Below are positions 8,833-33,365 of a DNA stretch of 64,000 nucleotides, in pieces. The translations under genes and the position numbers were made by a program. The notes under the pieces are model-generated. The model made no database searches. It had not been told where the DNA came from and saw only the letters and a list, made by a program, of their open reading frames with translations. Positions within the stretch are counted from its first letter, which is position 1. Each line of letters opens with the position of its first letter. Source of the stretch: Flavobacterium sp. K5-23 (GTDB taxonomy: Bacteria > Bacteroidota > Bacteroidia > Flavobacteriales > Flavobacteriaceae); the NCBI RefSeq assembly GCF_023278045.1, contig NZ_CP056783.1:1769501-1833500 (forward strand), given 5' to 3'.

Positions 8833-9090
8833 TTATATTTTTTTCATTTGACCTTTCATCATGGTGATCTGTTCTTTCAGCATACCTTGTTTGTCTAGTC
8901 TTTTTGCTTCGTTTAGAAGGTTAGTCGCTTCTAGCTTTCTTCTTCTTGACATCGCAACTCCCGCTAGATTTAATTTGGCAACAGCCAAATCGATAGACAA
9001 TCCTAATTCGATTGCTTTCTTGAAATATTTTTCAGCTTGGTTGATATTAGTTTGCGAAAGCATTATTCCGTGTAAGTAATTGAAATATAC
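8833..9090 (-). pseudogene. 5'-truncated copy of the TPR gene at 33806-34321
   Basis: The reverse-strand reading from YFNYLHGIMLSQTN to QMKKI aligns with residues from about 85 to the end of the intact 171-residue protein at 33806-34321. Differences are few (for example one Met-Asp pair missing after GLS). The membrane-spanning N-terminal half is absent. The frame stays open to an ATG at 9120, but those first dozen residues (MPPNQALNKQV) are antisense to the hydrolase fragment on the other strand and are not homologous. The join lies at about 9081-9092. It may still be translated, but as a soluble fragment without its anchor; I treat it as a duplication remnant. Confidence 0.8.
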
Positions 9091-10604: not shown

Positions 10605-13600
10605 ATGAAAAATTTTACTCACCTTATTTTTAATTTAGTTGGATCTAAATTAAATTTGTCTTTTTCATTAAACGCCATTTTAATTATGGTTTTTTCTATT
10701 TGTGTTGGTTCAGTTAATGCCCAAACTCAGCCAGCTGCTAGCCTAAGTCAAGGTGCCAATGGAGCTTTAACAGCTAGGACCACTCCTGTTGTATGGCAAA
10801 ATGGTAACGTAAATGCCAATCAAGCGCATTATGTAGAGGGTAATTCTTTGCCATACAGGTTAGTAATGACTCAAATGCCTATTAATGGCACTGAAGTGAC
10901 ATTGACCCTTCAATATGATTTGGTAAATAATAGCCGTTATGCCCTTGATTTTTTAACTGGTTTTCAGCAAATTCAACGTCATGATTTTGACAACCATACT
11001 GAGGAAGAAATTGTAAATCCAGTTATTGATTATTCTCAATTTTCATTAAATAGTCCTACTAGTACACTACCCATTACTACACCATCTTATCTAAACGGTA
11101 CATATGGAGCGGGAGCAGGAAGAGCTTTAGCTGATTTTAATGCATTACTAGCTGAGGATAAGTTTATTACATTATGGGGAGCCAATTTTAATACTAACGC
11201 AGGTATTAATTATACCTATTGGATTGGAAATACACAGGTTTTTACGGAAGCAGAAATTTTATCTCTAGTTGGGGGTAATAAATCGGTATCTTTTACCATA
11301 AAATTCACACCTACCTCTTCAACAGTAATTTTAGCATGGGGAGGTCATATTGCTGATAGGCTAGATTGGAGTTCAAATCCATTATTGAGTGCGGGTGCTA
11401 TCAGTGGCTCACCTTATCATACCAGAACCGTAAGCTGGAGTTTAAACAATTTAGGTAACCAGGATAGATCCCTCGCTGTGGCATTATCACCAGCAATCTG
11501 CCCATCATTTTTGACTACTCCAATAAATCCTTGTACTAATACATTAAATGGAACACCCATTCCCTGTGTTGAAAACGCTTGTGCTGGGTCAACTTTATTT
11601 TATAAGATTCCTACGGAATCAGGAGCGACTTCTTATTTGTGGTCGGTAACATCATCAATCGGGTCTTCTACTACTGGAATTGTCATTTCTCCTAACGCAA
11701 CCAGCCAGGCCATATCTGTTTATTTTCCCAATGCTGGAAAGTATACAGTTAATGCTGTTCTTAAAAATGATTCAGGTATTACCATTGCATGTCCAATAAA
11801 TACAGTGACAATTAATAATCAGGTAACTGGTAATTCTATTGCTTCCCCTCAATCTATTTGTTATGGAACTACGCCCGCTACTTTAACTGAAACAACATCT
11901 TCTTTTGGCAAAGGATATGTTTATTTATGGGAAAGCAGTACTACCAGTGCAACTTCTGGTTTTAATTCTGCTACTGGGGCAAATAATACAGCCAATTACT
12001 CTCCAGGAAGTTTAACACAAACAACCTGGTATAAACGATATGTAACTTCTGGAAGCTGTACCAGTGGTTATTCCAATGAGATTATGATTACTGTGAATCC
12101 ATTGCCAACAGCTTCCACAACCTCTCAAACTAATGTAAGTTGTTTTAGTGGAACTAATGGAAGTGCTACTGTAACAGCATCAGGAGGAACATCTCCTTAT
12201 ACTTATTCTTGGTCTCCTTCAGGCGGAACAGCAGCTACAGCTTCTGGGCTTGCCGCTGGAACTTATACCGTTACTGTTACAGACAGTAAGGGTTGTACCA
12301 AGACAGCTACAGCTACCATCACACAACCATCAGCTGCTTTATCTGCTTCTGCAACGGGAACTAATGTCAACTGTTTTGGTCAGTCAACGGGTTCAATGAC
12401 CGTTTCAGCCAGTGGGGGAACACCTTCTTATAGTTATGTAATTGCGGGTCCTACGGTTAATACCACAGGAGCAACATCAGGTATTTTCACTGGATTATCA
12501 GCTGGATTATATACAGTTACTGTCACAGATAGTAAGGGTTGTAGTACGACAGCGACTTATACAGTTACACAGCCTACAGTAGCATTATCAGCATCAGCTA
12601 CGGGAACTAATGTTAACTGCTTTGGTCAGTCTACAGGTTCAATGACCGTTTCAGCTGGTGGTGGAACAGCATCTTATAGCTATGTAATTGCCGGCCCTAC
12701 GGTTAATACTACAGGTGCTACATCAGGTATTTTCACAGGTTTATCGTCTGGAGCATATACAGTTACTGTAACAGATAGTAAGAGTTGTAGCACGACAGCG
12801 ACTTATACAGTTACACAGCCTACAGCTGCTTTAGCAATTTCATCTTCAGTAATTACAAAAGCGACTTGTCTAAATGGTACAAATGGCGCAATTGATATTA
12901 CAGTATCTGGAGGAACTTCTCCTTACACTTATTTATGGTCGAATTCGGCTACTACTGAAGATTTATCTGGATTATCAATTGGTACTTATTCAGTTATAAT
13001 TAAAGATGCAAATTTTTGTGAATTTACTTCAGTTAATATTACCATTGGTTCAACTAATTGTCTACCAGTAGCGGCAGCAGATGCAGAAACAGTAGCTGAA
13101 GACGGAAGCTTAACAGCGAGCGTAGCGGGCAACGACACTCCAAGTGGCGATGGCGGCAATGTATGGTCAGTAGTTACTGACGTAGCGAACGGAACCTTAG
13201 TATTTAATCCAGATGGTAGTTATACTTACACACCAAATGCGAATTACAATGGTTCAGACAGCTTTACGTATAAAGTATGTGATACCGATAATGATTGTTC
13301 ACAGGCCACATTGACCATTACGGTAAATGCCGTGAACGATGCCCCGGTAGCTGTTGATGATACCATTACGGCCACTGAAGACACGCTATTTACATCGACT
13401 GTTGATTTAGATTTCAACGATACCGATTTAGATGGTGATTCCTTAACGGTTGTTGCAGGAACATTTACTACAGCACAAGGCGGAACATTGGTTCTTGCTG
13501 CTGATGGTTCTTATACCTACACACCAGCATTGAACTTCAATGGAACAGACAGTGTTGATTACACCGTTACAGACGGATTCTTAACAGATATTGGAACATT

Positions 13601-16600
13601 GACCATTACGGTAAATGCCGTGAACGATGCCCCGGTAGCTGTTGATGATACCATTACGGCCACTGAAGACACGCTATTTACATCGACTGTTGATTTAGAT
13701 TTCAACGATACCGATTTAGATGGTGATTCCTTAACGGTTGTTGCAGGAACATTTACTACAGCACAAGGCGGAACATTGGTTCTTGCTGCTGATGGTTCTT
13801 ATACCTACACACCAGCATTGAACTTCAATGGAACAGACAGTGTTGATTACACCGTTACAGACGGATTCTTAACAGATATTGGAACATTGACCATTACGGT
13901 AAATGCCGTGAATGATGCCCCGGTAGCTGTTGATGATACCATTACGGCCACTGAAGACACGCTATTTACATCGACTGTTGATTTAGATTTCAACGATACC
14001 GATTTAGATGGTGATTCCTTAACGGTTGTTGCAGGAACATTTACTACAGCACAAGGCGGAACATTGGTTCTTGCTGCTGATGGTTCTTATACCTACACAC
14101 CAGCATTGAACTTCAATGGAACAGACAGTGTTGATTACACCGTTACAGACGGATTCTTAACAGATATTGGAACATTGACCATTACGGTAAATGCCGTGAA
14201 CGATGCCCCGGTAGCTGTTGATGATACCATTACGGCCACTGAAGACACGCTATTTACATCGACTGTTGATTTAGATTTCAACGATACCGATTTAGATGGT
14301 GATTCCTTAACGGTTGTTGCAGGAACATTTACTACAGCACAAGGCGGAACATTGGTTCTTGCTGCTGATGGTTCTTATACCTACACACCAGCATTGAACT
14401 TCAATGGAACAGACAGTGTTGATTACACCGTTACAGACGGATTCTTAACAGATATTGGAACATTGACCATTACGGTAAATGCCGTGAATGATGCCCCGGT
14501 AGCTGTTGATGATACCATTACGGCCACTGAAGACACGCTATTTACATCGACTGTTGATTTAGATTTCAACGATACCGATTTAGATGGTGATTCCTTAACG
14601 GTTGTTGCAGGAACATTTACTACAGCACAAGGCGGAACATTGGTTCTTGCTGCTGATGGTTCTTATACCTACACACCAGCATTGAACTTCAATGGAACAG
14701 ACAGTGTTGATTACACCGTTACAGACGGATTCTTAACAGATATTGGAACATTGACCATTACGGTAAATGCCGTGAACGATGCCCCGGTAGCTGTTGATGA
14801 TACCATTACGGCCACTGAAGACACGCTATTTACATCGACTGTTGATTTAGATTTCAACGATACCGATTTAGATGGTGATTCCTTAACGGTTGTTGCAGGA
14901 ACATTTACTACAGCACAAGGCGGAACATTGGTTCTTGCTGCTGATGGTTCTTATACCTACACACCAGCATTGAACTTCAATGGAACAGACAGTGTTGATT
15001 ACACCGTTACAGACGGATTCTTAACAGATATTGGAACATTGACCATTACGGTAAATGCCGTGAATGATGCCCCGGTAGCTGTTGATGATACCATTACGGC
15101 CACTGAAGACACGCTATTTACATCGACTGTTGATTTAGATTTCAACGATACCGATTTAGATGGTGATTCCTTAACGGTTGTTGCAGGAACATTTACTACA
15201 GCACAAGGCGGAACATTGGTTCTTGCTGCTGATGGTTCTTATACCTACACACCAGCATTGAACTTCAATGGAACAGACAGTGTTGATTACACCGTTACAG
15301 ACGGATTCTTAACAGATATTGGAACATTGACCATTACGGTAAATGCCGTGAATGATGCCCCGGTAGCTGTTGATGATACCATTACGGCCACTGAAGACAC
15401 GCTATTTACATCGACTGTTGATTTAGATTTCAACGATACCGATTTAGATGGTGATTCCTTAACGGTTGTTGCAGGAACATTTACTACAGCACAAGGCGGA
15501 ACATTGGTTCTTGCTGCTGATGGTTCTTATACCTACACACCAGCATTGAACTTCAATGGAACAGACAGTGTTGATTACACCGTTACAGACGGATTCTTAA
15601 CAGATATTGGAACATTGACCATTACGGTAAATGCCGTGAATGATGCCCCGGTAGCTGTTGATGATACCATTACGGCCACTGAAGACACGCTATTTACATC
15701 GACTGTTGATTTAGATTTCAACGATACCGATTTAGATGGTGATTCCTTAACGGTTGTTGCAGGAACATTTACTACAGCACAAGGCGGAACATTGGTTCTT
15801 GCTGCTGATGGTTCTTATACCTACACACCAGCATTGAACTTCAATGGAACAGACAGTGTTGATTACACCGTTACAGACGGATTCTTAACAGATATTGGAA
15901 CATTGACCATTACGGTAAATGCCGTGAACGATGCCCCGGTAGCTGTTGATGATACCATTACGGCCACTGAAGACACGCTATTTACATCGACTGTTGATTT
16001 AGATTTCAACGATACCGATTTAGATGGTGATTCCTTAACGGTTGTTGCAGGAACATTTACTACAGCACAAGGCGGAACATTGGTTCTTGCTGCTGATGGT
16101 TCTTATACCTACACACCAGCATTGAACTTCAATGGAACAGACAGTGTTGATTACACCGTTACAGACGGATTCTTAACAGATATTGGAACATTGACCATTA
16201 CGGTAAATGCCGTGAACGATGCCCCGGTAGCTGTTGATGATACCATTACGGCCACTGAAGACACGCTATTTACATCGACTGTTGATTTAGATTTCAACGA
16301 TACCGATTTAGATGGTGATTCCTTAACGGTTGTTGCAGGAACATTTACTACAGCACAAGGCGGAACATTGGTTCTTGCTGCTGATGGCTCATACACCTAC
16401 ACACCAGCATTGAACTTCAATGGAACAGACAGTGTTGATTACACCGTTACAGACGGATTCTTAACAGATATTGGAACATTGACCATTACGGTAAATGCCG
16501 TGAATGATGCCCCGGTAGCTGTTGATGATACCATTACGGCCACTGAAGACACGCTATTTACATCGACTGTTGATTTAGATTTCAACGATACCGATTTAGA

Positions 16601-19600
16601 TGGTGATTCCTTAACGGTTGTTGCAGGAACATTTACTACAGCACAAGGCGGAACATTGGTTCTTGCTGCTGATGGTTCTTATACCTACACACCAGCATTG
16701 AACTTCAATGGAACAGACAGTGTTGATTACACCGTTACAGACGGATTCTTAACAGATATTGGAACATTGACCATTACGGTAAATGCCGTGAATGATGCCC
16801 CGGTAGCTGTTGATGATACCATTACGGCCACTGAAGACACGCTATTTACATCGACTGTTGATTTAGATTTCAACGATACCGATTTAGATGGTGATTCCTT
16901 AACGGTTGTTGCAGGAACATTTACTACAGCACAAGGCGGAACATTGGTTCTTGCTGCTGATGGTTCTTATACCTACACACCAGCATTGAACTTCAATGGA
17001 ACAGACAGTGTTGATTACACCGTTACAGACGGATTCTTAACAGATATTGGAACATTGACCATTACGGTAAATGCCGTGAATGATGCCCCGGTAGCTGTTG
17101 ATGATACCATTACGGCCACTGAAGACACGCTATTTACATCGACTGTTGATTTAGATTTCAACGATACCGATTTAGATGGTGATTCATTAACGGTTGTTGC
17201 AGGAACATTTACTACAGCACAAGGCGGAACATTGGTTCTTGCTGCTGATGGTTCTTATACCTACACACCAGCATTGAACTTCAATGGAACAGACAGTGTT
17301 GATTACACCGTTACAGACGGATTCTTAACAGATATTGGAACATTGACCATTACGGTAAATGCCGTGAACGATGCCCCGGTAGCTGTTGATGATACCATTA
17401 CGGCCACTGAAGACACGCTATTTACATCGACTGTTGATTTAGATTTCAACGATACCGATTTAGATGGTGATTCCTTAACGGTTGTTGCAGGAACATTTAC
17501 TACAGCACAAGGCGGAACATTGGTTCTTGCTGCTGATGGTTCTTATACCTACACACCAGCATTGAACTTCAATGGAACAGACAGTGTTGATTACACCGTT
17601 ACAGACGGATTCTTAACAGATATTGGAACATTGACCATTACGGTAAATGCCGTGAATGATGCCCCGGTAGCTGTTGATGATACCATTACGGCCACTGAAG
17701 ACACGCTATTTACATCGACTGTTGATTTAGATTTCAACGATACCGATTTAGATGGTGATTCCTTAACGGTTGTTGCAGGAACATTTACTACAGCACAAGG
17801 CGGAACATTGGTTCTTGCTGCTGATGGTTCTTATACCTACACACCAGCATTGAACTTCAATGGAACAGACAGTGTTGATTACACCGTTACAGACGGATTC
17901 TTAACAGATATTGGAACATTGACCATTACGGTAAATGCCGTGAACGATGCCCCGGTAGCTGTTGATGATACCATTACGGCCACTGAAGACACGCTATTTA
18001 CATCGACTGTTGATTTAGATTTCAACGATACCGATTTAGATGGTGATTCCTTAACGGTTGTTGCAGGAACATTTACTACAGCACAAGGCGGAACATTGGT
18101 TCTTGCTGCTGATGGTTCTTATACCTACACACCAGCATTGAACTTCAATGGAACAGACAGTGTTGATTACACCGTTACAGACGGATTCTTAACAGATATT
18201 GGAACATTGACCATTACGGTAAATGCCGTGAATGATGCCCCGGTAGCTGTTGATGATACCATTACGGCCACTGAAGACACGCTATTTACATCGACTGTTG
18301 ATTTAGATTTCAACGATACCGATTTAGATGGTGATTCCTTAACGGTTGTTGCAGGAACATTTACTACAGCACAAGGCGGAACATTGGTTCTTGCTGCTGA
18401 TGGTTCTTATACCTACACACCAGCATTGAACTTCAATGGAACAGACAGTGTTGATTACACCGTTACAGACGGATTCTTAACAGATATTGGAACATTGACC
18501 ATTACGGTAAATGCCGTGAATGATGCCCCGGTAGCTGTTGATGATACCATTACGGCCACTGAAGACACGCTATTTACATCGACTGTTGATTTAGATTTCA
18601 ACGATACCGATTTAGATGGTGATTCCTTAACGGTTGTTGCAGGAACATTTACTACAGCACAAGGCGGAACATTGGTTCTTGCTGCTGATGGTTCTTATAC
18701 CTACACACCAGCATTGAACTTCAATGGAACAGACAGTGTTGATTACACCGTTACAGACGGATTCTTAACAGATATTGGAACATTGACCATTACGGTAAAT
18801 GCCGTGAATGATGCCCCGGTAGCTGTTGATGATACCATTACGGCCACTGAAGACACGCTATTTACATCGACTGTTGATTTAGATTTCAACGATACCGATT
18901 TAGATGGTGATTCCTTAACGGTTGTTGCAGGAACATTTACTACAGCACAAGGCGGAACATTGGTTCTTGCTGCTGATGGTTCTTATACCTACACACCAGC
19001 ATTGAACTTCAATGGAACAGACAGTGTTGATTACACCGTTACAGACGGATTCTTAACAGATATTGGAACATTGACCATTACGGTAAATGCCGTGAACGAT
19101 GCCCCGGTAGCTGTTGATGATACCATTACGGCCACTGAAGACACGCTATTTACATCGACTGTTGATTTAGATTTCAACGATACCGATTTAGATGGTGATT
19201 CCTTAACGGTTGTTGCAGGAACATTTACTACAGCACAAGGCGGAACATTGGTTCTTGCTGCTGATGGTTCTTATACCTACACACCAGCATTGAACTTCAA
19301 TGGAACAGACAGTGTTGATTACACCGTTACAGACGGATTCTTAACAGATATTGGAACATTGACCATTACGGTAAATGCCGTGAATGATGCCCCGGTAGCT
19401 GTTGATGATACCATTACGGCCACTGAAGACACGCTATTTACATCGACTGTTGATTTAGATTTCAACGATACCGATTTAGATGGTGATTCCTTAACGGTTG
19501 TTGCAGGAACATTTACTACAGCACAAGGCGGAACATTGGTTCTTGCTGCTGATGGTTCTTATACCTACACACCAGCATTGAACTTCAATGGAACAGACAG

Positions 19601-22600: not shown

Positions 22601-25600
22601 GCTATTTACATCGACTGTTGATTTAGATTTCAACGATACCGATTTAGATGGTGATTCCTTAACGGTTGTTGCAGGAACATTTACTACAGCACAAGGCGGA
22701 ACATTGGTTCTTGCTGCTGATGGTTCTTATACCTACACACCAGCATTGAACTTCAATGGAACAGACAGTGTTGATTACACCGTTACAGACGGATTCTTAA
22801 CAGATATTGGAACATTGACCATTACGGTAAATGCCGTGAACGATGCCCCGGTAGCTGTTGATGATACCATTACGGCCACTGAAGACACGCTATTTACATC
22901 GACTGTTGATTTAGATTTCAACGATACCGATTTAGATGGTGATTCCTTAACGGTTGTTGCAGGAACATTTACTACAGCACAAGGCGGAACATTGGTTCTT
23001 GCTGCTGATGGTTCTTATACCTACACACCAGCATTGAACTTCAATGGAACAGACAGTGTTGATTACACCGTTACAGACGGATTCTTAACAGATATTGGAA
23101 CATTGACCATTACGGTAAATGCCGTGAATGATGCCCCGGTAGCTGTTGATGATACCATTACGGCCACTGAAGACACGCTATTTACATCGACTGTTGATTT
23201 AGATTTCAACGATACCGATTTAGATGGTGATTCCTTAACGGTTGTTGCAGGAACATTTACTACAGCACAAGGCGGAACATTGGTTCTTGCTGCTGATGGT
23301 TCTTATACCTACACACCAGCATTGAACTTCAATGGAACAGACAGTGTTGATTACACCGTTACAGACGGATTCTTAACAGATATTGGAACATTGACCATTA
23401 CGGTAAATGCCGTGAACGATGCCCCGGTAGCTGTTGATGATACCATTACGGCCACTGAAGACACGCTATTTACATCGACTGTTGATTTAGATTTCAACGA
23501 TACCGATTTAGATGGTGATTCCTTAACGGTTGTTGCAGGAACATTTACTACAGCACAAGGCGGAACATTGGTTCTTGCTGCTGATGGTTCTTATACCTAC
23601 ACACCAGCATTGAACTTCAATGGAACAGACAGTGTTGATTACACCGTTACAGACGGATTCTTAACAGATATTGGAACATTGACCATTACGGTAAATGCCG
23701 TGAACGATGCCCCGGTAGCTGTTGATGATACCATTACGGCCACTGAAGACACGCTATTTACATCGACTGTTGATTTAGATTTCAACGATACCGATTTAGA
23801 TGGTGATTCCTTAACGGTTGTTGCAGGAACATTTACTACAGCACAAGGCGGAACATTGGTTCTTGCTGCTGATGGCTCATACACCTACACACCAGCATTG
23901 AACTTCAATGGAACAGACAGTGTTGATTACACCGTTACAGACGGATTCTTAACAGATATTGGAACATTGACCATTACGGTAAATGCCGTGAACGATGCCC
24001 CGGTAGCTGTTGATGATACCATTACGGCCACTGAAGACACGCTATTTACATCGACTGTTGATTTAGATTTCAACGATACCGATTTAGATGGTGATTCCTT
24101 AACGGTTGTTGCAGGAACATTTACTACAGCACAAGGCGGAACATTGGTTCTTGCTGCTGATGGTTCTTATACCTACACACCAGCATTGAACTTCAATGGA
24201 ACAGACAGTGTTGATTACACCGTTACAGACGGATTCTTAACAGATATTGGAACATTGACCATTACGGTAAATGCCGTGAACGATGCCCCGGTAGCTGTTG
24301 ATGATACCATTACGGCCACTGAAGACACGCTATTTACATCGACTGTTGATTTAGATTTCAACGATACCGATTTAGATGGTGATTCCTTAACGGTTGTTGC
24401 AGGAACATTTACTACAGCACAAGGCGGAACATTGGTTCTTGCTGCTGATGGTTCTTATACCTACACACCAGCATTGAACTTCAATGGAACAGACAGTGTT
24501 GATTACACCGTTACAGACGGATTCTTAACAGATATTGGAACATTGACCATTACGGTAAATGCCGTGAACGATGCCCCGGTAGCTGTTGATGATACCATTA
24601 CGGCCACTGAAGACACGCTATTTACATCGACTGTTGATTTAGATTTCAACGATACCGATTTAGATGGTGATTCCTTAACGGTTGTTGCAGGAACATTTAC
24701 TACAGCACAAGGCGGAACATTGGTTCTTGCTGCTGATGGTTCTTATACCTACACACCAGCATTGAACTTCAATGGAACAGACAGTGTTGATTACACCGTT
24801 ACAGACGGATTCTTAACAGATATTGGAACATTGACCATTACGGTAAATGCCGTGAATGATGCCCCGGTAGCTGTTGATGATACCATTACGGCCACTGAAG
24901 ACACGCTATTTACATCGACTGTTGATTTAGATTTCAACGATACCGATTTAGATGGTGATTCATTAACGGTTGTTGCAGGAACATTTACTACAGCACAAGG
25001 CGGAACATTGGTTCTTGCTGCTGATGGTTCTTATACCTACACACCAGCATTGAACTTCAATGGAACAGACAGTGTTGATTACACCGTTACAGACGGATTC
25101 TTAACAGATATTGGAACATTGACCATTACGGTAAATGCCGTGAACGATGCCCCGGTAGCTGTTGATGATACCATTACGGCCACTGAAGACACGCTATTTA
25201 CATCGACTGTTGATTTAGATTTCAACGATACCGATTTAGATGGTGATTCCTTAACGGTTGTTGCAGGAACATTTACTACAGCACAAGGCGGAACATTGGT
25301 TCTTGCTGCTGATGGTTCTTATACCTACACACCAGCATTGAACTTCAATGGAACAGACAGTGTTGATTACACCGTTACAGACGGATTCTTAACAGATATT
25401 GGAACATTGACCATTACGGTAAATGCCGTGAACGATGCCCCGGTAGCTGTTGATGATACCATTACGGCCACTGAAGACACGCTATTTACATCGACTGTTG
25501 ATTTAGATTTCAACGATACCGATTTAGATGGTGATTCCTTAACGGTTGTTGCAGGAACATTTACTACAGCACAAGGCGGAACATTGGTTCTTGCTGCTGA

Positions 25601-28600
25601 TGGTTCTTATACCTACACACCAGCATTGAACTTCAATGGAACAGACAGTGTTGATTACACCGTTACAGACGGATTCTTAACAGATATTGGAACATTGACC
25701 ATTACGGTAAATGCCGTGAACGATGCCCCGGTAGCTGTTGATGATACCATTACGGCCACTGAAGACACGCTATTTACATCGACTGTTGATTTAGATTTCA
25801 ACGATACCGATTTAGATGGTGATTCCTTAACGGTTGTTGCAGGAACATTTACTACAGCACAAGGCGGAACATTGGTTCTTGCTGCTGATGGTTCTTATAC
25901 CTACACACCAGCATTGAACTTCAATGGAACAGACAGTGTTGATTACACCGTTACAGACGGATTCTTAACAGATATTGGAACATTGACCATTACGGTAAAT
26001 GCCGTGAATGATGCCCCGGTAGCTGTTGATGATACCATTACGGCCACTGAAGACACGCTATTTACATCGACTGTTGATTTAGATTTCAACGATACCGATT
26101 TAGATGGTGATTCATTAACGGTTGTTGCAGGAACATTTACTACAGCACAAGGCGGAACATTGGTTCTTGCTGCTGATGGTTCTTATACCTACACACCAGC
26201 ATTGAACTTCAATGGAACAGACAGTGTTGATTACACCGTTACAGACGGATTCTTAACAGATATTGGAACATTGACCATTACGGTAAATGCCGTGAATGAT
26301 GCCCCGGTAGCTGTTGATGATACCATTACGGCCACTGAAGACACGCTATTTACATCGACTGTTGATTTAGATTTCAACGATACCGATTTAGATGGTGATT
26401 CCTTAACGGTTGTTGCAGGAACATTTACTACAGCACAAGGCGGAACATTGGTTCTTGCTGCTGATGGTTCTTATACCTACACACCAGCATTGAACTTCAA
26501 TGGAACAGACAGTGTTGATTACACCGTTACAGACGGATTCTTAACAGATATTGGAACATTGACCATTACGGTAAATGCCGTGAACGATGCCCCGGTAGCT
26601 GTTGATGATACCATTACGGCCACTGAAGACACGCTATTTACATCGACTGTTGATTTAGATTTCAACGATACCGATTTAGATGGTGATTCCTTAACGGTTG
26701 TTGCAGGAACATTTACTACAGCACAAGGCGGAACATTGGTTCTTGCTGCTGATGGTTCTTATACCTACACACCAGCATTGAACTTCAATGGAACAGACAG
26801 TGTTGATTACACCGTTACAGACGGATTCTTAACAGATATTGGAACATTGACCATTACGGTAAATGCCGTGAATGATGCCCCGGTAGCTGTTGATGATACC
26901 ATTACGGCCACTGAAGACACGCTATTTACATCGACTGTTGATTTAGATTTCAACGATACCGATTTAGATGGTGATTCCTTAACGGTTGTTGCAGGAACAT
27001 TTACTACAGCACAAGGCGGAACATTGGTTCTTGCTGCTGATGGTTCTTATACCTACACACCAGCATTGAACTTCAATGGAACAGACAGTGTTGATTACAC
27101 CGTTACAGACGGATTCTTAACAGATATTGGAACATTGACCATTACGGTAAATGCCGTGAACGATGCCCCGGTAGCTGTTGATGATACCATTACGGCCACT
27201 GAAGACACGCTATTTACATCGACTGTTGATTTAGATTTCAACGATACCGATTTAGATGGTGATTCCTTAACGGTTGTTGCAGGAACATTTACTACAGCAC
27301 AAGGCGGAACATTGGTTCTTGCTGCTGATGGCTCATACACCTACACACCAGCATTGAACTTCAATGGAACAGACAGTGTTGATTACACCGTTACAGACGG
27401 ATTCTTAACAGATATTGGAACATTGACCATTACGGTAAATGCCGTGAATGATGCCCCGGTAGCTGTTGATGATACCATTACGGCCACTGAAGACACGCTA
27501 TTTACATCGACTGTTGATTTAGATTTCAACGATACCGATTTAGATGGTGATTCATTAACGGTTGTTGCAGGAACATTTACTACAGCACAAGGCGGAACAT
27601 TGGTTCTTGCTGCTGATGGTTCTTATACCTACACACCAGCATTGAACTTCAATGGAACAGACAGTGTTGATTACACCGTTACAGACGGATTCTTAACAGA
27701 TATTGGAACATTGACCATTACGGTAAATGCCGTGAACGATGCCCCGGTAGCTGTTGATGATACCATTACGGCCACTGAAGACACGCTATTTACATCGACT
27801 GTTGATTTAGATTTCAACGATACCGATTTAGATGGTGATTCCTTAACGGTTGTTGCAGGAACATTTACTACAGCACAAGGCGGAACATTGGTTCTTGCTG
27901 CTGATGGTTCTTATACCTACACACCAGCATTGAACTTCAATGGAACAGACAGTGTTGATTACACCGTTACAGACGGATTCTTAACAGATATTGGAACATT
28001 GACCATTACGGTAAATGCCGTGAATGATGCCCCGGTAGCTGTTGATGATACCATTACGGCCACTGAAGACACGCTATTTACATCGACTGTTGATTTAGAT
28101 TTCAACGATACCGATTTAGATGGTGATTCCTTAACGGTTGTTGCAGGAACATTTACTACAGCACAAGGCGGAACATTGGTTCTTGCTGCTGATGGTTCTT
28201 ATACCTACACACCAGCATTGAACTTCAATGGAACAGACAGTGTTGATTACACCGTTACAGACGGATTCTTAACAGATATTGGAACATTGACCATTACGGT
28301 AAATGCCGTGAACGATGCCCCGGTAGCTGTTGATGATACCATTACGGCCACTGAAGACACGCTATTTACATCGACTGTTGATTTAGATTTCAACGATACC
28401 GATTTAGATGGTGATTCCTTAACGGTTGTTGCAGGAACATTTACTACAGCACAAGGCGGAACATTGGTTCTTGCTGCTGATGGTTCTTATACCTACACAC
28501 CAGCATTGAACTTCAATGGAACAGACAGTGTTGATTACACCGTTACAGACGGATTCTTAACAGATATTGGAACATTGACCATTACGGTAAATGCCGTGAA

Positions 28601-31600
28601 CGATGCCCCGGTAGCTGTTGATGATACCATTACGGCCACTGAAGACACGCTATTTACATCGACTGTTGATTTAGATTTCAACGATACCGATTTAGATGGT
28701 GATTCCTTAACGGTTGTTGCAGGAACATTTACTACAGCACAAGGCGGAACATTGGTTCTTGCTGCTGATGGTTCTTATACCTACACACCAGCATTGAACT
28801 TCAATGGAACAGACAGTGTTGATTACACCGTTACAGACGGATTCTTAACAGATATTGGAACATTGACCATTACGGTAAATGCCGTGAACGATGCCCCGGT
28901 AGCTGTTGATGATACCATTACGGCCACTGAAGACACGCTATTTACATCGACTGTTGATTTAGATTTCAACGATACCGATTTAGATGGTGATTCCTTAACG
29001 GTTGTTGCAGGAACATTTACTACAGCACAAGGCGGAACATTGGTTCTTGCTGCTGATGGTTCTTATACCTACACACCAGCATTGAACTTCAATGGAACAG
29101 ACAGTGTTGATTACACCGTTACAGACGGATTCTTAACAGATATTGGAACATTGACCATTACGGTAAATGCCGTGAATGATGCCCCGGTAGCTGTTGATGA
29201 TACCATTACGGCCACTGAAGACACGCTATTTACATCGACTGTTGATTTAGATTTCAACGATACCGATTTAGATGGTGATTCATTAACGGTTGTTGCAGGA
29301 ACATTTACTACAGCACAAGGCGGAACATTGGTTCTTGCTGCTGATGGTTCTTATACCTACACACCAGCATTGAACTTCAATGGAACAGACAGTGTTGATT
29401 ACACCGTTACAGACGGATTCTTAACAGATATTGGAACATTGACCATTACGGTAAATGCCGTGAACGATGCCCCGGTAGCTGTTGATGATACCATTACGGC
29501 CACTGAAGACACGCTATTTACATCGACTGTTGATTTAGATTTCAACGATACCGATTTAGATGGTGATTCCTTAACGGTTGTTGCAGGAACATTTACTACA
29601 GCACAAGGCGGAACATTGGTTCTTGCTGCTGATGGTTCTTATACCTACACACCAGCATTGAACTTCAATGGAACAGACAGTGTTGATTACACCGTTACAG
29701 ACGGATTCTTAACAGATATTGGAACATTGACCATTACGGTAAATGCCGTGAACGATGCCCCGGTAGCTGTTGATGATACCATTACGGCCACTGAAGACAC
29801 GCTATTTACATCGACTGTTGATTTAGATTTCAACGATACCGATTTAGATGGTGATTCCTTAACGGTTGTTGCAGGAACATTTACTACAGCACAAGGCGGA
29901 ACATTGGTTCTTGCTGCTGATGGTTCTTATACCTACACACCAGCATTGAACTTCAATGGAACAGACAGTGTTGATTACACCGTTACAGACGGATTCTTAA
30001 CAGATATTGGAACATTGACCATTACGGTAAATGCCGTGAACGATGCCCCGGTAGCTGTTGATGATACCATTACGGCCACTGAAGACACGCTATTTACATC
30101 GACTGTTGATTTAGATTTCAACGATACCGATTTAGATGGTGATTCCTTAACGGTTGTTGCAGGAACATTTACTACAGCACAAGGCGGAACATTGGTTCTT
30201 GCTGCTGATGGTTCTTATACCTACACACCAGCATTGAACTTCAATGGAACAGACAGTGTTGATTACACCGTTACAGACGGATTCTTAACAGATATTGGAA
30301 CATTGACCATTACGGTAAATGCCGTGAATGATGCCCCGGTAGCTGTTGATGATACCATTACGGCCACTGAAGACACGCTATTTACATCGACTGTTGATTT
30401 AGATTTCAACGATACCGATTTAGATGGTGATTCATTAACGGTTGTTGCAGGAACATTTACTACAGCACAAGGCGGAACATTGGTTCTTGCTGCTGATGGT
30501 TCTTATACCTACACACCAGCATTGAACTTCAATGGAACAGACAGTGTTGATTACACCGTTACAGACGGATTCTTAACAGATATTGGAACATTGACCATTA
30601 CGGTAAATGCCGTGAATGATGCCCCGGTAGCTGTTGATGATACCATTACGGCCACTGAAGACACGCTATTTACATCGACTGTTGATTTAGATTTCAACGA
30701 TACCGATTTAGATGGTGATTCCTTAACGGTTGTTGCAGGAACATTTACTACAGCACAAGGCGGAACATTGGTTCTTGCTGCTGATGGTTCTTATACCTAC
30801 ACACCAGCATTGAACTTCAATGGAACAGACAGTGTTGATTACACCGTTACAGACGGATTCTTAACAGATATTGGAACATTGACCATTACGGTAAATGCCG
30901 TGAATGATGCCCCGGTAGCTGTTGATGATACCATTACGGCCACTGAAGACACGCTATTTACATCGACTGTTGATTTAGATTTCAACGATACCGATTTAGA
31001 TGGTGATTCCTTAACGGTTGTTGCAGGAACATTTACTACAGCACAAGGCGGAACATTGGTTCTTGCTGCTGATGGTTCTTATACCTACACACCAGCATTG
31101 AACTTCAATGGAACAGACAGTGTTGATTACACCGTTACAGACGGATTCTTAACAGATATTGGAACATTGACCATTACGGTAAATGCCGTGAACGATGCCC
31201 CGGTAGCTGTTGATGATACCATTACGGCCACTGAAGACACGCTATTTACATCGACTGTTGATTTAGATTTCAACGATACCGATTTAGATGGTGATTCCTT
31301 AACGGTTGTTGCAGGAACATTTACTACAGCACAAGGCGGAACATTGGTTCTTGCTGCTGATGGTTCTTATACCTACACACCAGCATTGAACTTCAATGGA
31401 ACAGACAGTGTTGATTACACCGTTACAGACGGATTCTTAACAGATATTGGAACATTGACCATTACGGTAAATGCCGTGAACGATGCCCCGGTAGCTGTTG
31501 ATGATACCATTACGGCCACTGAAGACACGCTATTTACATCGACTGTTGATTTAGATTTCAACGATACCGATTTAGATGGTGATTCCTTAACGGTTGTTGC

Positions 31601-33365
31601 AGGAACATTTACTACAGCACAAGGCGGAACATTGGTTCTTGCTGCTGATGGTTCTTATACCTACACACCAGCATTGAACTTCAATGGAACAGACAGTGTT
31701 GATTACACCGTTACAGACGGATTCTTAACAGATATTGGAACATTGACCATTACGGTAAATGCCGTGAATGATGCCCCGGTAGCTGTTGATGATACCATTA
31801 CGGCCACTGAAGACACGCTATTTACATCGACTGTTGATTTAGATTTCAACGATACCGATTTAGATGGTGATTCCTTAACGGTTGTTGCAGGAACATTTAC
31901 TACAGCACAAGGCGGAACATTGGTTCTTGCTGCTGATGGCTCATACACCTACACACCAGCATTGAACTTCAATGGAACAGACAGTGTTGATTACACCGTT
32001 ACAGACGGATTCTTAACAGATATTGGAACGCTGACCATTACGGTACTTTGTGCTACACCAAATGCTCCAACAGTTGATGTTATACATCCAAGCTGTACTG
32101 TAGCAACTGGAAGTATTACAGTGAAAACTCCGGTAGGTCCGTATCTAATGTATAGTATTGATGGTGAAAACTATCAATCAAGTACAGCATTTAGTGGTCT
32201 TATTGCAGGTAATTATAGTGTAACGATTATAAATGGCGCTTGTATTTCTTTATCAACTATTGTAACTATCAATTCACAACCAGTTTCGCCTGCTCCGCCA
32301 ACAGCAAGTGTAACTGTGCAACCAACTTGTACCGTTTCAACAGGAACAATACAGGTGACGGTACCGGCTAATGGAACTGGAATTACGTATACTGTTGTAG
32401 GTGTGAATCCTGTAGTAGCAGCAGTGACCAATACAACAGGTGTGTTTAGTAATCTGGCAGTAGGAAGTTACAATGTAACTACTACTAATGCGATAGGGTG
32501 TATTTCGGTCCCAACAGCAGTAAGTATTCTTGCTCCAGTGGGTTGTGGAGGAATTTTCCATACGGGTACTACTTGTGCTGATTTTAAAGCAGGAGGAAAT
32601 GGATTAGAGTTAATGCAGTTGTGTTACTCAACCCAAGGTAAAAATGTAAAAATTGTTACCCCAGGTGTGTTCTTCTATTATGCAACTATTGTTGCTCCAA
32701 GTTCAAGTTTCAGTATTGATGTAACTCAGTCAAAAGTCACAACTTCAGGTAATAGTTTTGGTCTGTTCTCAATTCAGAAAGCGAATCAAATAACATTATG
32801 GGATCCAAATTGTAATAAATTCAGTGATAATGGAATAATTAGTGGGACAAATAATGGTCAAGGCAAGTTAAATATTACTGGAGCCATTACTGGAGCGACC
32901 TATGTGTTGTCTGTTAAATATGATTCTAAATCAATACAAGGAAATAGCTTTACATCAGCAAATAATCCACCAACAGTAACTTATAATTTTGTGACTAAAG
33001 TTAATGGATCGGTTGTGCTTGGAAGTAGTGCTAATATTAGTATGGTACCAAATTGTTCAGCTTCATCACCAATAAGCACTTCAACGGCAAAAATTGCTGC
33101 TGTAACAACAATGGATGTAGATCTTTATCCAGTACCTTTTGTAAATAACTTAACATTAATTTATAAGTTTGAAACAAGTTCTGAGGTTAGAATAGAAGTT
33201 TATAATTCTAGTGGAAGGTTATTGTCAACGCAAATAGATAAGAATGTCTATATGAACAAAGAACTGCCAATTGAATTGAATTTTGGAATACTACCAGCTG
33301 AAATGTATTTAATAAAAGTAACTTCGGATGGAGGTAGTATCGTTAAGAGTGTTATTTCTAAATAG
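10605..33365 (+). CDS. Giant T9SS-secreted repeat protein (7586 aa, probable surface adhesin)
   Basis: Layout by residue. 1-40: signal peptide ending VGSVNA/QTQ. About 40-300: N-terminal domain of the kind found on large flavobacterial surface proteins (HYVEGNSLPYRLVMTQ, AWGGHIADRLDW). About 310-495: PKD/Ig-like domains. About 500-815: four SprB-type repeats (ASGGTSPYTYSWSPSGG, LAAGTYTVTVTDSKGCT). About 818-908: one divergent cadherin/VCBS-like unit. 909-7148: 65 identical 96-residue units. 7149-7500: further Ig-like domains. About 7505-7586: T9SS type A sorting domain (DLYPVPFVNNL, VRIEVYNSSGRLL, MYLIKVTSDGG). Acidic strings such as DFNDTDLDGDS in each unit suggest Ca2+-stabilised beta-sandwiches. 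By family it is exported by T9SS and anchored on the cell surface, probably for adhesion, biofilm or gliding. No PorP/SprF-like gene follows. The frame is intact through all repeats. Confidence 0.92.
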   Translation: MKNFTHLIFNLVGSKLNLSFSLNAILIMVFSICVGSVNAQTQPAASLSQGANGALTARTTPVVWQNGNVNANQAHYVEGNSLPYRLVMTQMPINGTEVTLTLQYDLVNNSRYALDFLTGFQQIQRHDFDNHTEEEIVNPVIDYSQFSLNSPTSTLPITTPSYLNGTYGAGAGRALADFNALLAEDKFITLWGANFNTNAGINYTYWIGNTQVFTEAEILSLVGGNKSVSFTIKFTPTSSTVILAWGGHIADRLDWSSNPLLSAGAISGSPYHTRTVSWSLNNLGNQDRSLAVALSPAICPSFLTTPINPCTNTLNGTPIPCVENACAGSTLFYKIPTESGATSYLWSVTSSIGSSTTGIVISPNATSQAISVYFPNAGKYTVNAVLKNDSGITIACPINTVTINNQVTGNSIASPQSICYGTTPATLTETTSSFGKGYVYLWESSTTSATSGFNSATGANNTANYSPGSLTQTTWYKRYVTSGSCTSGYSNEIMITVNPLPTASTTSQTNVSCFSGTNGSATVTASGGTSPYTYSWSPSGGTAATASGLAAGTYTVTVTDSKGCTKTATATITQPSAALSASATGTNVNCFGQSTGSMTVSASGGTPSYSYVIAGPTVNTTGATSGIFTGLSAGLYTVTVTDSKGCSTTATYTVTQPTVALSASATGTNVNCFGQSTGSMTVSAGGGTASYSYVIAGPTVNTTGATSGIFTGLSSGAYTVTVTDSKSCSTTATYTVTQPTAALAISSSVITKATCLNGTNGAIDITVSGGTSPYTYLWSNSATTEDLSGLSIGTYSVIIKDANFCEFTSVNITIGSTNCLPVAAADAETVAEDGSLTASVAGNDTPSGDGGNVWSVVTDVANGTLVFNPDGSYTYTPNANYNGSDSFTYKVCDTDNDCSQATLTITVNAVNDAPVAVDDTITATEDTLFTSTVDLDFNDTDLDGDSLTVVAGTFTTAQGGTLVLAADGSYTYTPALNFNGTDSVDYTVTDGFLTDIGTLTITVNAVNDAPVAVDDTITATEDTLFTSTVDLDFNDTDLDGDSLTVVAGTFTTAQGGTLVLAADGSYTYTPALNFNGTDSVDYTVTDGFLTDIGTLTITVNAVNDAPVAVDDTITATEDTLFTSTVDLDFNDTDLDGDSLTVVAGTFTTAQGGTLVLAADGSYTYTPALNFNGTDSVDYTVTDGFLTDIGTLTITVNAVNDAPVAVDDTITATEDTLFTSTVDLDFNDTDLDGDSLTVVAGTFTTAQGGTLVLAADGSYTYTPALNFNGTDSVDYTVTDGFLTDIGTLTITVNAVNDAPVAVDDTITATEDTLFTSTVDLDFNDTDLDGDSLTVVAGTFTTAQGGTLVLAADGSYTYTPALNFNGTDSVDYTVTDGFLTDIGTLTITVNAVNDAPVAVDDTITATEDTLFTSTVDLDFNDTDLDGDSLTVVAGTFTTAQGGTLVLAADGSYTYTPALNFNGTDSVDYTVTDGFLTDIGTLTITVNAVNDAPVAVDDTITATEDTLFTSTVDLDFNDTDLDGDSLTVVAGTFTTAQGGTLVLAADGSYTYTPALNFNGTDSVDYTVTDGFLTDIGTLTITVNAVNDAPVAVDDTITATEDTLFTSTVDLDFNDTDLDGDSLTVVAGTFTTAQGGTLVLAADGSYTYTPALNFNGTDSVDYTVTDGFLTDIGTLTITVNAVNDAPVAVDDTITATEDTLFTSTVDLDFNDTDLDGDSLTVVAGTFTTAQGGTLVLAADGSYTYTPALNFNGTDSVDYTVTDGFLTDIGTLTITVNAVNDAPVAVDDTITATEDTLFTSTVDLDFNDTDLDGDSLTVVAGTFTTAQGGTLVLAADGSYTYTPALNFNGTDSVDYTVTDGFLTDIGTLTITVNAVNDAPVAVDDTITATEDTLFTSTVDLDFNDTDLDGDSLTVVAGTFTTAQGGTLVLAADGSYTYTPALNFNGTDSVDYTVTDGFLTDIGTLTITVNAVNDAPVAVDDTITATEDTLFTSTVDLDFNDTDLDGDSLTVVAGTFTTAQGGTLVLAADGSYTYTPALNFNGTDSVDYTVTDGFLTDIGTLTITVNAVNDAPVAVDDTITATEDTLFTSTVDLDFNDTDLDGDSLTVVAGTFTTAQGGTLVLAADGSYTYTPALNFNGTDSVDYTVTDGFLTDIGTLTITVNAVNDAPVAVDDTITATEDTLFTSTVDLDFNDTDLDGDSLTVVAGTFTTAQGGTLVLAADGSYTYTPALNFNGTDSVDYTVTDGFLTDIGTLTITVNAVNDAPVAVDDTITATEDTLFTSTVDLDFNDTDLDGDSLTVVAGTFTTAQGGTLVLAADGSYTYTPALNFNGTDSVDYTVTDGFLTDIGTLTITVNAVNDAPVAVDDTITATEDTLFTSTVDLDFNDTDLDGDSLTVVAGTFTTAQGGTLVLAADGSYTYTPALNFNGTDSVDYTVTDGFLTDIGTLTITVNAVNDAPVAVDDTITATEDTLFTSTVDLDFNDTDLDGDSLTVVAGTFTTAQGGTLVLAADGSYTYTPALNFNGTDSVDYTVTDGFLTDIGTLTITVNAVNDAPVAVDDTITATEDTLFTSTVDLDFNDTDLDGDSLTVVAGTFTTAQGGTLVLAADGSYTYTPALNFNGTDSVDYTVTDGFLTDIGTLTITVNAVNDAPVAVDDTITATEDTLFTSTVDLDFNDTDLDGDSLTVVAGTFTTAQGGTLVLAADGSYTYTPALNFNGTDSVDYTVTDGFLTDIGTLTITVNAVNDAPVAVDDTITATEDTLFTSTVDLDFNDTDLDGDSLTVVAGTFTTAQGGTLVLAADGSYTYTPALNFNGTDSVDYTVTDGFLTDIGTLTITVNAVNDAPVAVDDTITATEDTLFTSTVDLDFNDTDLDGDSLTVVAGTFTTAQGGTLVLAADGSYTYTPALNFNGTDSVDYTVTDGFLTDIGTLTITVNAVNDAPVAVDDTITATEDTLFTSTVDLDFNDTDLDGDSLTVVAGTFTTAQGGTLVLAADGSYTYTPALNFNGTDSVDYTVTDGFLTDIGTLTITVNAVNDAPVAVDDTITATEDTLFTSTVDLDFNDTDLDGDSLTVVAGTFTTAQGGTLVLAADGSYTYTPALNFNGTDSVDYTVTDGFLTDIGTLTITVNAVNDAPVAVDDTITATEDTLFTSTVDLDFNDTDLDGDSLTVVAGTFTTAQGGTLVLAADGSYTYTPALNFNGTDSVDYTVTDGFLTDIGTLTITVNAVNDAPVAVDDTITATEDTLFTSTVDLDFNDTDLDGDSLTVVAGTFTTAQGGTLVLAADGSYTYTPALNFNGTDSVDYTVTDGFLTDIGTLTITVNAVNDAPVAVDDTITATEDTLFTSTVDLDFNDTDLDGDSLTVVAGTFTTAQGGTLVLAADGSYTYTPALNFNGTDSVDYTVTDGFLTDIGTLTITVNAVNDAPVAVDDTITATEDTLFTSTVDLDFNDTDLDGDSLTVVAGTFTTAQGGTLVLAADGSYTYTPALNFNGTDSVDYTVTDGFLTDIGTLTITVNAVNDAPVAVDDTITATEDTLFTSTVDLDFNDTDLDGDSLTVVAGTFTTAQGGTLVLAADGSYTYTPALNFNGTDSVDYTVTDGFLTDIGTLTITVNAVNDAPVAVDDTITATEDTLFTSTVDLDFNDTDLDGDSLTVVAGTFTTAQGGTLVLAADGSYTYTPALNFNGTDSVDYTVTDGFLTDIGTLTITVNAVNDAPVAVDDTITATEDTLFTSTVDLDFNDTDLDGDSLTVVAGTFTTAQGGTLVLAADGSYTYTPALNFNGTDSVDYTVTDGFLTDIGTLTITVNAVNDAPVAVDDTITATEDTLFTSTVDLDFNDTDLDGDSLTVVAGTFTTAQGGTLVLAADGSYTYTPALNFNGTDSVDYTVTDGFLTDIGTLTITVNAVNDAPVAVDDTITATEDTLFTSTVDLDFNDTDLDGDSLTVVAGTFTTAQGGTLVLAADGSYTYTPALNFNGTDSVDYTVTDGFLTDIGTLTITVNAVNDAPVAVDDTITATEDTLFTSTVDLDFNDTDLDGDSLTVVAGTFTTAQGGTLVLAADGSYTYTPALNFNGTDSVDYTVTDGFLTDIGTLTITVNAVNDAPVAVDDTITATEDTLFTSTVDLDFNDTDLDGDSLTVVAGTFTTAQGGTLVLAADGSYTYTPALNFNGTDSVDYTVTDGFLTDIGTLTITVNAVNDAPVAVDDTITATEDTLFTSTVDLDFNDTDLDGDSLTVVAGTFTTAQGGTLVLAADGSYTYTPALNFNGTDSVDYTVTDGFLTDIGTLTITVNAVNDAPVAVDDTITATEDTLFTSTVDLDFNDTDLDGDSLTVVAGTFTTAQGGTLVLAADGSYTYTPALNFNGTDSVDYTVTDGFLTDIGTLTITVNAVNDAPVAVDDTITATEDTLFTSTVDLDFNDTDLDGDSLTVVAGTFTTAQGGTLVLAADGSYTYTPALNFNGTDSVDYTVTDGFLTDIGTLTITVNAVNDAPVAVDDTITATEDTLFTSTVDLDFNDTDLDGDSLTVVAGTFTTAQGGTLVLAADGSYTYTPALNFNGTDSVDYTVTDGFLTDIGTLTITVNAVNDAPVAVDDTITATEDTLFTSTVDLDFNDTDLDGDSLTVVAGTFTTAQGGTLVLAADGSYTYTPALNFNGTDSVDYTVTDGFLTDIGTLTITVNAVNDAPVAVDDTITATEDTLFTSTVDLDFNDTDLDGDSLTVVAGTFTTAQGGTLVLAADGSYTYTPALNFNGTDSVDYTVTDGFLTDIGTLTITVNAVNDAPVAVDDTITATEDTLFTSTVDLDFNDTDLDGDSLTVVAGTFTTAQGGTLVLAADGSYTYTPALNFNGTDSVDYTVTDGFLTDIGTLTITVNAVNDAPVAVDDTITATEDTLFTSTVDLDFNDTDLDGDSLTVVAGTFTTAQGGTLVLAADGSYTYTPALNFNGTDSVDYTVTDGFLTDIGTLTITVNAVNDAPVAVDDTITATEDTLFTSTVDLDFNDTDLDGDSLTVVAGTFTTAQGGTLVLAADGSYTYTPALNFNGTDSVDYTVTDGFLTDIGTLTITVNAVNDAPVAVDDTITATEDTLFTSTVDLDFNDTDLDGDSLTVVAGTFTTAQGGTLVLAADGSYTYTPALNFNGTDSVDYTVTDGFLTDIGTLTITVNAVNDAPVAVDDTITATEDTLFTSTVDLDFNDTDLDGDSLTVVAGTFTTAQGGTLVLAADGSYTYTPALNFNGTDSVDYTVTDGFLTDIGTLTITVNAVNDAPVAVDDTITATEDTLFTSTVDLDFNDTDLDGDSLTVVAGTFTTAQGGTLVLAADGSYTYTPALNFNGTDSVDYTVTDGFLTDIGTLTITVNAVNDAPVAVDDTITATEDTLFTSTVDLDFNDTDLDGDSLTVVAGTFTTAQGGTLVLAADGSYTYTPALNFNGTDSVDYTVTDGFLTDIGTLTITVNAVNDAPVAVDDTITATEDTLFTSTVDLDFNDTDLDGDSLTVVAGTFTTAQGGTLVLAADGSYTYTPALNFNGTDSVDYTVTDGFLTDIGTLTITVNAVNDAPVAVDDTITATEDTLFTSTVDLDFNDTDLDGDSLTVVAGTFTTAQGGTLVLAADGSYTYTPALNFNGTDSVDYTVTDGFLTDIGTLTITVNAVNDAPVAVDDTITATEDTLFTSTVDLDFNDTDLDGDSLTVVAGTFTTAQGGTLVLAADGSYTYTPALNFNGTDSVDYTVTDGFLTDIGTLTITVNAVNDAPVAVDDTITATEDTLFTSTVDLDFNDTDLDGDSLTVVAGTFTTAQGGTLVLAADGSYTYTPALNFNGTDSVDYTVTDGFLTDIGTLTITVNAVNDAPVAVDDTITATEDTLFTSTVDLDFNDTDLDGDSLTVVAGTFTTAQGGTLVLAADGSYTYTPALNFNGTDSVDYTVTDGFLTDIGTLTITVNAVNDAPVAVDDTITATEDTLFTSTVDLDFNDTDLDGDSLTVVAGTFTTAQGGTLVLAADGSYTYTPALNFNGTDSVDYTVTDGFLTDIGTLTITVNAVNDAPVAVDDTITATEDTLFTSTVDLDFNDTDLDGDSLTVVAGTFTTAQGGTLVLAADGSYTYTPALNFNGTDSVDYTVTDGFLTDIGTLTITVNAVNDAPVAVDDTITATEDTLFTSTVDLDFNDTDLDGDSLTVVAGTFTTAQGGTLVLAADGSYTYTPALNFNGTDSVDYTVTDGFLTDIGTLTITVNAVNDAPVAVDDTITATEDTLFTSTVDLDFNDTDLDGDSLTVVAGTFTTAQGGTLVLAADGSYTYTPALNFNGTDSVDYTVTDGFLTDIGTLTITVNAVNDAPVAVDDTITATEDTLFTSTVDLDFNDTDLDGDSLTVVAGTFTTAQGGTLVLAADGSYTYTPALNFNGTDSVDYTVTDGFLTDIGTLTITVNAVNDAPVAVDDTITATEDTLFTSTVDLDFNDTDLDGDSLTVVAGTFTTAQGGTLVLAADGSYTYTPALNFNGTDSVDYTVTDGFLTDIGTLTITVNAVNDAPVAVDDTITATEDTLFTSTVDLDFNDTDLDGDSLTVVAGTFTTAQGGTLVLAADGSYTYTPALNFNGTDSVDYTVTDGFLTDIGTLTITVNAVNDAPVAVDDTITATEDTLFTSTVDLDFNDTDLDGDSLTVVAGTFTTAQGGTLVLAADGSYTYTPALNFNGTDSVDYTVTDGFLTDIGTLTITVNAVNDAPVAVDDTITATEDTLFTSTVDLDFNDTDLDGDSLTVVAGTFTTAQGGTLVLAADGSYTYTPALNFNGTDSVDYTVTDGFLTDIGTLTITVNAVNDAPVAVDDTITATEDTLFTSTVDLDFNDTDLDGDSLTVVAGTFTTAQGGTLVLAADGSYTYTPALNFNGTDSVDYTVTDGFLTDIGTLTITVNAVNDAPVAVDDTITATEDTLFTSTVDLDFNDTDLDGDSLTVVAGTFTTAQGGTLVLAADGSYTYTPALNFNGTDSVDYTVTDGFLTDIGTLTITVNAVNDAPVAVDDTITATEDTLFTSTVDLDFNDTDLDGDSLTVVAGTFTTAQGGTLVLAADGSYTYTPALNFNGTDSVDYTVTDGFLTDIGTLTITVNAVNDAPVAVDDTITATEDTLFTSTVDLDFNDTDLDGDSLTVVAGTFTTAQGGTLVLAADGSYTYTPALNFNGTDSVDYTVTDGFLTDIGTLTITVLCATPNAPTVDVIHPSCTVATGSITVKTPVGPYLMYSIDGENYQSSTAFSGLIAGNYSVTIINGACISLSTIVTINSQPVSPAPPTASVTVQPTCTVSTGTIQVTVPANGTGITYTVVGVNPVVAAVTNTTGVFSNLAVGSYNVTTTNAIGCISVPTAVSILAPVGCGGIFHTGTTCADFKAGGNGLELMQLCYSTQGKNVKIVTPGVFFYYATIVAPSSSFSIDVTQSKVTTSGNSFGLFSIQKANQITLWDPNCNKFSDNGIISGTNNGQGKLNITGAITGATYVLSVKYDSKSIQGNSFTSANNPPTVTYNFVTKVNGSVVLGSSANISMVPNCSASSPISTSTAKIAAVTTMDVDLYPVPFVNNLTLIYKFETSSEVRIEVYNSSGRLLSTQIDKNVYMNKELPIELNFGILPAEMYLIKVTSDGGSIVKSVISK
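13329..32048 (+). repeat. 65 tandem 288-bp units, all encoding the same 96 residues
   Basis: The string GCCGTGAA(C/T)GATGCCCC recurs every 288 bp from 13329 to 31761 without a single length change; (31761-13329)/288 = 64, so 65 units. One unit is about 43% GC by my count, higher than the flanking DNA. Differences I could find are all synonymous: AAC/AAT Asn at base 9 (34 units C, 31 units T); TCC/TCA Ser in units 14, 27, 31, 41, 45, 50, 56 and 60; the linked trio GGC-TCA-TAC in place of GGT-TCT-TAT in units 11, 37, 49 and 65; and ACG-CTG in unit 65. The encoded motif is of the cadherin-like/VCBS tandem-95 kind. The last unit ends at 32048, after which the sequence changes to CTTTGTGCTACACC. 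Confidence 0.95.

Follow-up and report, generated by a model that had tools for sequence, protein, structure and literature searches.

Giant bacterial adhesins built from one repeated module are already known, and near-perfect sameness among the modules is not unprecedented. In MpAFP (MpIBP) of Marinomonas primoryensis, an RTX (repeats-in-toxin) adhesin with an ice-binding domain, the extender Region II (RII) is described as about 120 Ig-like units of 104 residues, identical even in DNA (PMC4083281). Periscope Proteins, as set out in PMC8201768 and PMC9704523, place a tandem series of folded, highly identical domains between a head at the N-terminus and an anchor at the C-terminus; the class is named for length variation between strains, and neither 'Bacteroid' nor 'Flavobact' occurs in the main text of PMC8201768. 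The extenders of the RTX adhesins AhLap and MhLap (6XI1, 6XI3) are reported to contain few basic residues (PMC7493085), and a Mobiluncus mulieris giant adhesin of 7651 residues is described with 51 Ig-like repeats and internally cross-linked domains (PMC10619420). Here we analyse a gene of Flavobacterium sp. K5-23, located in a stretch of 64,000 nucleotides (the window), whose product carries 65 tandem 96-residue units ahead of a type A sorting domain of the type IX secretion system (T9SS). Its type A tail, conserved head, SprB and Ig spacers and 65 cadherin-like extenders lead us to favour, with reasonable confidence, a fibrillar ('Periscope-like') stalk exported by the T9SS and built of units similar to the Ca2+-stiffened extenders of RTX adhesins. 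Searches of the open-licence literature on T9SS tandem repeats, giant adhesins and genes, SprB, tandem-95, RTX extenders and transfer returned no description of such a protein.

The giant gene and its 65-unit array

The genome consists of one contig of 3,490,877 bases, with the giant gene at 1780105-1802865. As originally predicted from the nucleotide sequence, the gene is one intact frame, with an ATG start, a single terminal stop and no N anywhere in the window; it encodes 7586 residues with a mass of 782 kDa and a pI of 4.05 (computed for the precursor). In window coordinates its parts are as follows.

10605..33365, + strand: giant open reading frame, 7586 residues
10605..10724, + strand: probable signal peptide, read by eye at about residues 1-40
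10725..11480, + strand: head, about residues 41-292, from the alignment of homologues
11838..12101, + strand: Ig_7-like stretch, under the Pfam cut-off
12117..13049, + strand: four SprB repeats (limits approximate), in part a 246-bp tandem, from Pfam and a tandem-repeat search
13062..13334, + strand: single divergent cadherin-like unit sharing 50% identity with the array unit, from Pfam and the unit search
13335..32054, + strand: array of 65 units of 96 residues, from unit reading, Tandem Repeats Finder and the unit search
32055..33122, + strand: C-terminal region ahead of the sorting domain, resembling the tails of other Flavobacterium proteins
33123..33356, + strand: T9SS type A sorting domain (PF18962 / TIGR04183)

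Matches within the first 1006 residues passed the curated Pfam/NCBIfam cut-offs for Big_9 (139.8 bits), Cadherin_5 (101.1 bits) and tandem-95 (117.8 bits). PKD-like as well as Ig_7-like stretches, all under the Pfam cut-off, come between the head and the SprB repeats. The four SprB-type stretches, the cadherin-like unit and the type A tail, all named in the original prediction, were borne out by Pfam/NCBIfam matches above cut-off.

Tandem Repeats Finder placed the array at 13308-32045, with a period of 288 bp, 65.1 copies and 99% matches. The 65 tandem units at constant 96-residue spacing are as predicted, but 64 of them, not 65, are identical over all 96 residues: unit 65 departs from units 1-64 in its final three residues only, LCA in place of NAV. 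A whole-genome search with the unit gave 66 matches, all inside the giant frame: 64 cover the full unit, one covers residues 1-93, and the remaining one is the divergent unit. At the DNA level there are five unit types, one of them the last unit and four internal. Units 1-64 vary at just five sites, every one synonymous: one site is split about half and half, one varies in 8 units, and a linked triple occurs at units 11, 37 and 49. This triple is shared with unit 65, so that sequence of the 3′ edge recurs at these three internal positions. The mean pairwise DNA difference among array units is 0.35%. The order of the four internal types is non-periodic, and neighbouring units are no more alike than by chance. 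Because no exact repeat within the array exceeds 2879 bp, accurate reads longer than about 3 kb could order it. Growth by multi-unit blocks was considered and not adopted, the tests being suggestive but not significant (P = 0.09 for the longest repeated block, of 9 units; P = 0.051 for recurring 5-unit words; P = 0.09 for the best lag, 13).

The array is strongly acidic, with 975 Asp and 65 Glu (1040 acidic residues) over 6240 residues and no Lys, Arg or His. Each unit has 16 acidic residues and is also without Cys, Met and Trp. Since basic residues are absent, a predicted trypsin digest leaves the whole array in one 6284-residue peptide.

The prediction that the protein is T9SS cargo with a type A sorting domain agreed with further evidence. 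The domain scored above both cut-offs (for Por_Secre_tail and TIGR04183, 29.0 bits against 27 and 33.2 bits against 23; 34.2 bits in the genome scan), and the same genome carries SprA (2786.7 bits) and GldM (581.7 bits), both above cut-off. Among Pfam matches to the C-terminal 532 residues (E up to 1) there was no RTX-repeat family. Type A C-terminal domain (CTD) proteins are often attached to the cell, and the giant protein is probably anchored on the cell surface.

The unit family and the uniformity of the array

The expectation of tandem sandwich domains is consistent with a two-unit structure model (predicted TM-score 0.62), in which the predicted fold resembles that of RTX-adhesin domains and cadherins, with 6xi1 among the structure matches. 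AhLap and MhLap share with the window protein a similar predicted fold, acidic tandem units and a scarcity of basic residues, but they are RTX adhesins with less uniform units, and the window array has no basic residue at all. MpAFP shares the use of a run of identical units as an extender; the window protein differs from it in having a T9SS tail and another head, and its unit had no sequence match to RII chains in the PDB (E up to 1, and again up to 0.1). The array would act much as the MpAFP and AhLap extenders do, in a protein that is not of the RTX kind. As in Periscope Proteins, the repeats are long and highly identical (96 residues, 64 of 65 identical), and head and sorting tail lie at opposite ends. 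That class is named for variation between strains, whereas the window protein is known from one genome.

To place the unit among other giants, we used two listings of 120 proteins each (240 in all), the first drawn from 622 giant proteins that have related units, the second from 5596; both searches scored only the candidates with most shared words, and the database proteins were clustered. Unit scores fell into two groups, with 17 of the 240 at 112-138 bits and the next at 76. Among those 17 are proteins of Flavobacterium (three), Shewanella sp. HL-SH5, Ferrimonas lipolytica, Sulfurimonas aquatica, a Burkholderiaceae metagenome-assembled genome (MAG) and others. The window unit is equally close to those of Shewanella (79/96 residues) and Flavobacterium sp. 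90 (80/96). The giants of Flavobacterium sp. 90, Flavobacterium sp. 9 and an uncultured Flavobacterium (P0002, P0005 and P0015; 39, 23 and 21 matched units) share this 96-residue subfamily at about 80% identity at best, yet these tandem-95 proteins have diverged units, a CHU_C (type B) tail by Pfam and another N-terminus; both of those read unit by unit also contain an interspersed second unit type. Shewanella sp. HL-SH5 (P0001; 6732 residues, 55 units, 9 distinct) and Ferrimonas lipolytica (P0004; 4188 residues, 28 units, 2 distinct) have the same unit subfamily in gammaproteobacterial proteins with RTX-like ends, which we infer to be type I secretion system substrates. The commonest Shewanella unit is likewise without basic residues, and the consensus of the Flavobacterium sister array in G311 has one. 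With the Shewanella and Ferrimonas units compared as protein, transfer across phyla appears a simpler reading than convergence under strong constraint. Mobile carriage was also considered and set aside: 19 plasmid records match the unit, all at < 60% identity (phage records were not searched).

By the measure that gives 65.1 copies for the window array, the longest perfect run among the 120 listed of 622 was 6.0 copies; across the 240 listed proteins, the most copies in perfect runs were 24.1, 11.8, 10.9 and 7.2. The longest of these runs belongs to P0242, a protein of 3004 residues with 24 perfect copies of a 93-residue unit. A separate frame of 9053 residues (G028:C15; L068, L069), larger than the window protein, matches its Ig/SprB part. 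In 5 of the 13 other genomes of the genus with unit matches (G164, G416, G176, G245 and G365), the DNA match falls at or close to the end of a contig. As the database proteins were clustered and matches fall at contig ends, such arrays are probably under-represented in databases.

The original prediction held that perfect identity over 65 units is extreme even for giant adhesins. This does not stand beside the DNA-identical copies, about 120 of them, described for MpAFP RII (PMC4083281). Nor does identity need to be treated as an extreme of its own. Units of two sister arrays of the same subfamily differ by 11.8% (G311, 33 units) and 12.9% (G125, 14 units); their counts of synonymous against non-synonymous variants are 108:31 and 108:32. 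If 25% of single changes in the unit are synonymous, as expected without constraint, all five sites would be synonymous with a chance of about 0.001 (0.016 with the linked triple counted as one); at the sister-array ratio, the chance is about 0.28 or 0.47. We therefore reject special selection for perfect protein identity as unnecessary: an all-synonymous set is unremarkable under constraint like that on the sister arrays. Recent homogenisation together with ordinary purifying selection fits the sequences. The two sister frames, of 6819 and 6127 residues from stop to stop, have like ends and like neighbours (L061/L062), differ in unit number (39 versus 21 matches) and mix spacings of 96 and 111 residues.

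Head, locus and origin

The head is a widespread domain. No best-matching stretch of a Pfam or NCBIfam model lay within residues 41-292, but residues 24-500 were matched (E <= 1e-5) by 82 of the 120 listed homologues, from 376, of the protein from the congener G009. An alignment of 28 sequences, which 25 of those 120 entered (L076 and L077 were left out; all 120 were scanned for units), has N, H, E, R, D and W at invariant positions. The head also has 39% matches in two Bacteroidales MAGs. In a genus set of 398 genomes, one per species, the head is present in six, this one included (E <= 1e-15), the nearest being 54% identical (G374). Three of these (G009, G354 and G264) have complete frames of 1069, 828 and 756 residues, stop to stop, with a similar tail and no unit match; the head frames of G374 (638 residues) and G248 (450 residues) are cut off by a contig end. 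Given three complete homologues without it, the array was probably added to a head-plus-tail protein. Matches to the C-terminal part occur in 240 of the 398 genomes, this one included (E <= 1e-8), and many cover the SprB-like or sorting parts only. Upstream of the head homologue in G374 lies a frame (L110:1-4992) with a tail like that of the window protein and an array of similar units, judged from repeated antisense frames about 498 bp apart.

The window order is hydrolase, SLT, TPR 3′ fragment, degenerate hydrolase copy, giant gene, intact TPR, an rpmH-like short frame (by eye) and carB. Three features bear on how the gene came to lie here.

8836..9114, - strand: 3′ fragment of a TPR gene, with 81% amino acid identity to the intact gene across the giant gene
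9084..9701, + strand: degenerate second copy of the alpha/beta-hydrolase-like gene (7029-7703), 61% protein identity
33806..34321, - strand: intact TPR gene, next to carB, the arrangement seen in relatives

The TPR gene is flanked on one side by carB in all 15 same-genus relatives examined. On its other side, 14 of them have the hydrolase and/or SLT gene within 1.5 kb, with no match to the giant protein's head or tail in the locus stretches examined; the fifteenth (G014) has neither neighbour within reach. The truncated TPR gene and degenerate hydrolase copy are a record, read from sequence, of insertion or duplication at the locus. The two TPR copies share 80.7% DNA identity, about the difference seen between species, and arrival of the gene from another Flavobacterium by recombination at the conserved flanks would fit; an old local duplication is an alternative origin that these data accommodate.

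We tentatively propose a wider history, although we consider it less probable than the stalk itself. A 96-residue extender may have been exchanged across phyla and secretion systems (in Shewanella and Ferrimonas, RTX-type adhesins; in Flavobacterium, T9SS proteins of types A and B), then amplified and homogenised in each recipient. Here the recipient would have been a head-plus-tail T9SS protein of about 750-1070 residues at a newly occupied locus, yielding a basic-free, length-tunable stalk of about 0.3 µm.

Alternative readings and implications

The acidity of the array could be read differently, as that of a secreted matrix polyanion, a Ca2+- or cation-binding polymer of biofilm or sheath in which charge and mass, not reach, are selected. 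The 1040 acidic residues without a basic one in 6240 suit this reading, but homologues conserve both head and tail, and proteins with a type A CTD often stay on the cell; we regard it as unlikely. That the copy number or the perfect identity reflects an expanded or over-polished repeat in the assembly is a natural concern, as the unit matches near contig ends in 5 of 13 other genomes indicate that these arrays trouble assemblers. The genome is nevertheless in a single contig, the four internal unit types follow a non-periodic order, and the 2879-bp longest exact repeat is within the span of accurate reads of about 3 kb, which together make an artefact improbable.

The original prediction also placed the protein in the size class of the largest flavobacterial gliding adhesins. 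In size the likeness holds, since SprB of F. johnsoniae, a giant cell-surface protein, has 6497 residues (PMC9870892), and SprB repeats, SprA and GldM are present. A SprB-like adhesin propelled along the cell surface is nonetheless very improbable here. The genome has 19 type A tail matches (18 pass the cut-off), 12 CHU_C matches (9 pass) and 6 PorP-family genes. None of the CHU_C matches falls at the giant gene, where a type A match does, and none of the PorP-family matches lies near 1780105-1802865, whereas at five other loci a PorP gene, from the six in the genome, sits next to a CHU_C gene, whose product in one case has 4368 residues. Neither the type B tail nor the SprF partner of SprB is seen here, and we reject the gliding adhesin on tail type and the missing PorP/SprF neighbour.

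For the T9SS-exported stalk, the following sequence of events is plausible. Sec would export the protein, and the tail would then carry it through the T9SS to be anchored at the outer membrane. Outside the cell the acidic units may bind Ca2+ and stiffen into a rod of about 0.3 µm, which would keep the head clear of the surface so that it can bind a partner or substrate. As has been proposed for Periscope Proteins, copies would recombine unequally, which would maintain uniformity in the array and let its length change, while purifying selection would remove protein changes. The gene would have reached the locus by recombination or local duplication, leaving the TPR fragment and the hydrolase relic.

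With no trypsin site in the array, standard proteomics would see almost none of the protein, and this, with draft assemblies that tend to end at such arrays, suggests that proteins of this kind are under-counted. The diverged sister arrays indicate that perfect identity takes only recent turnover and ordinary constraint. The protein adds a Flavobacterium T9SS type A cargo to the homogenised giant stalks represented by MpAFP and Periscope Proteins, and its unit types offer a natural record of turnover in such arrays.
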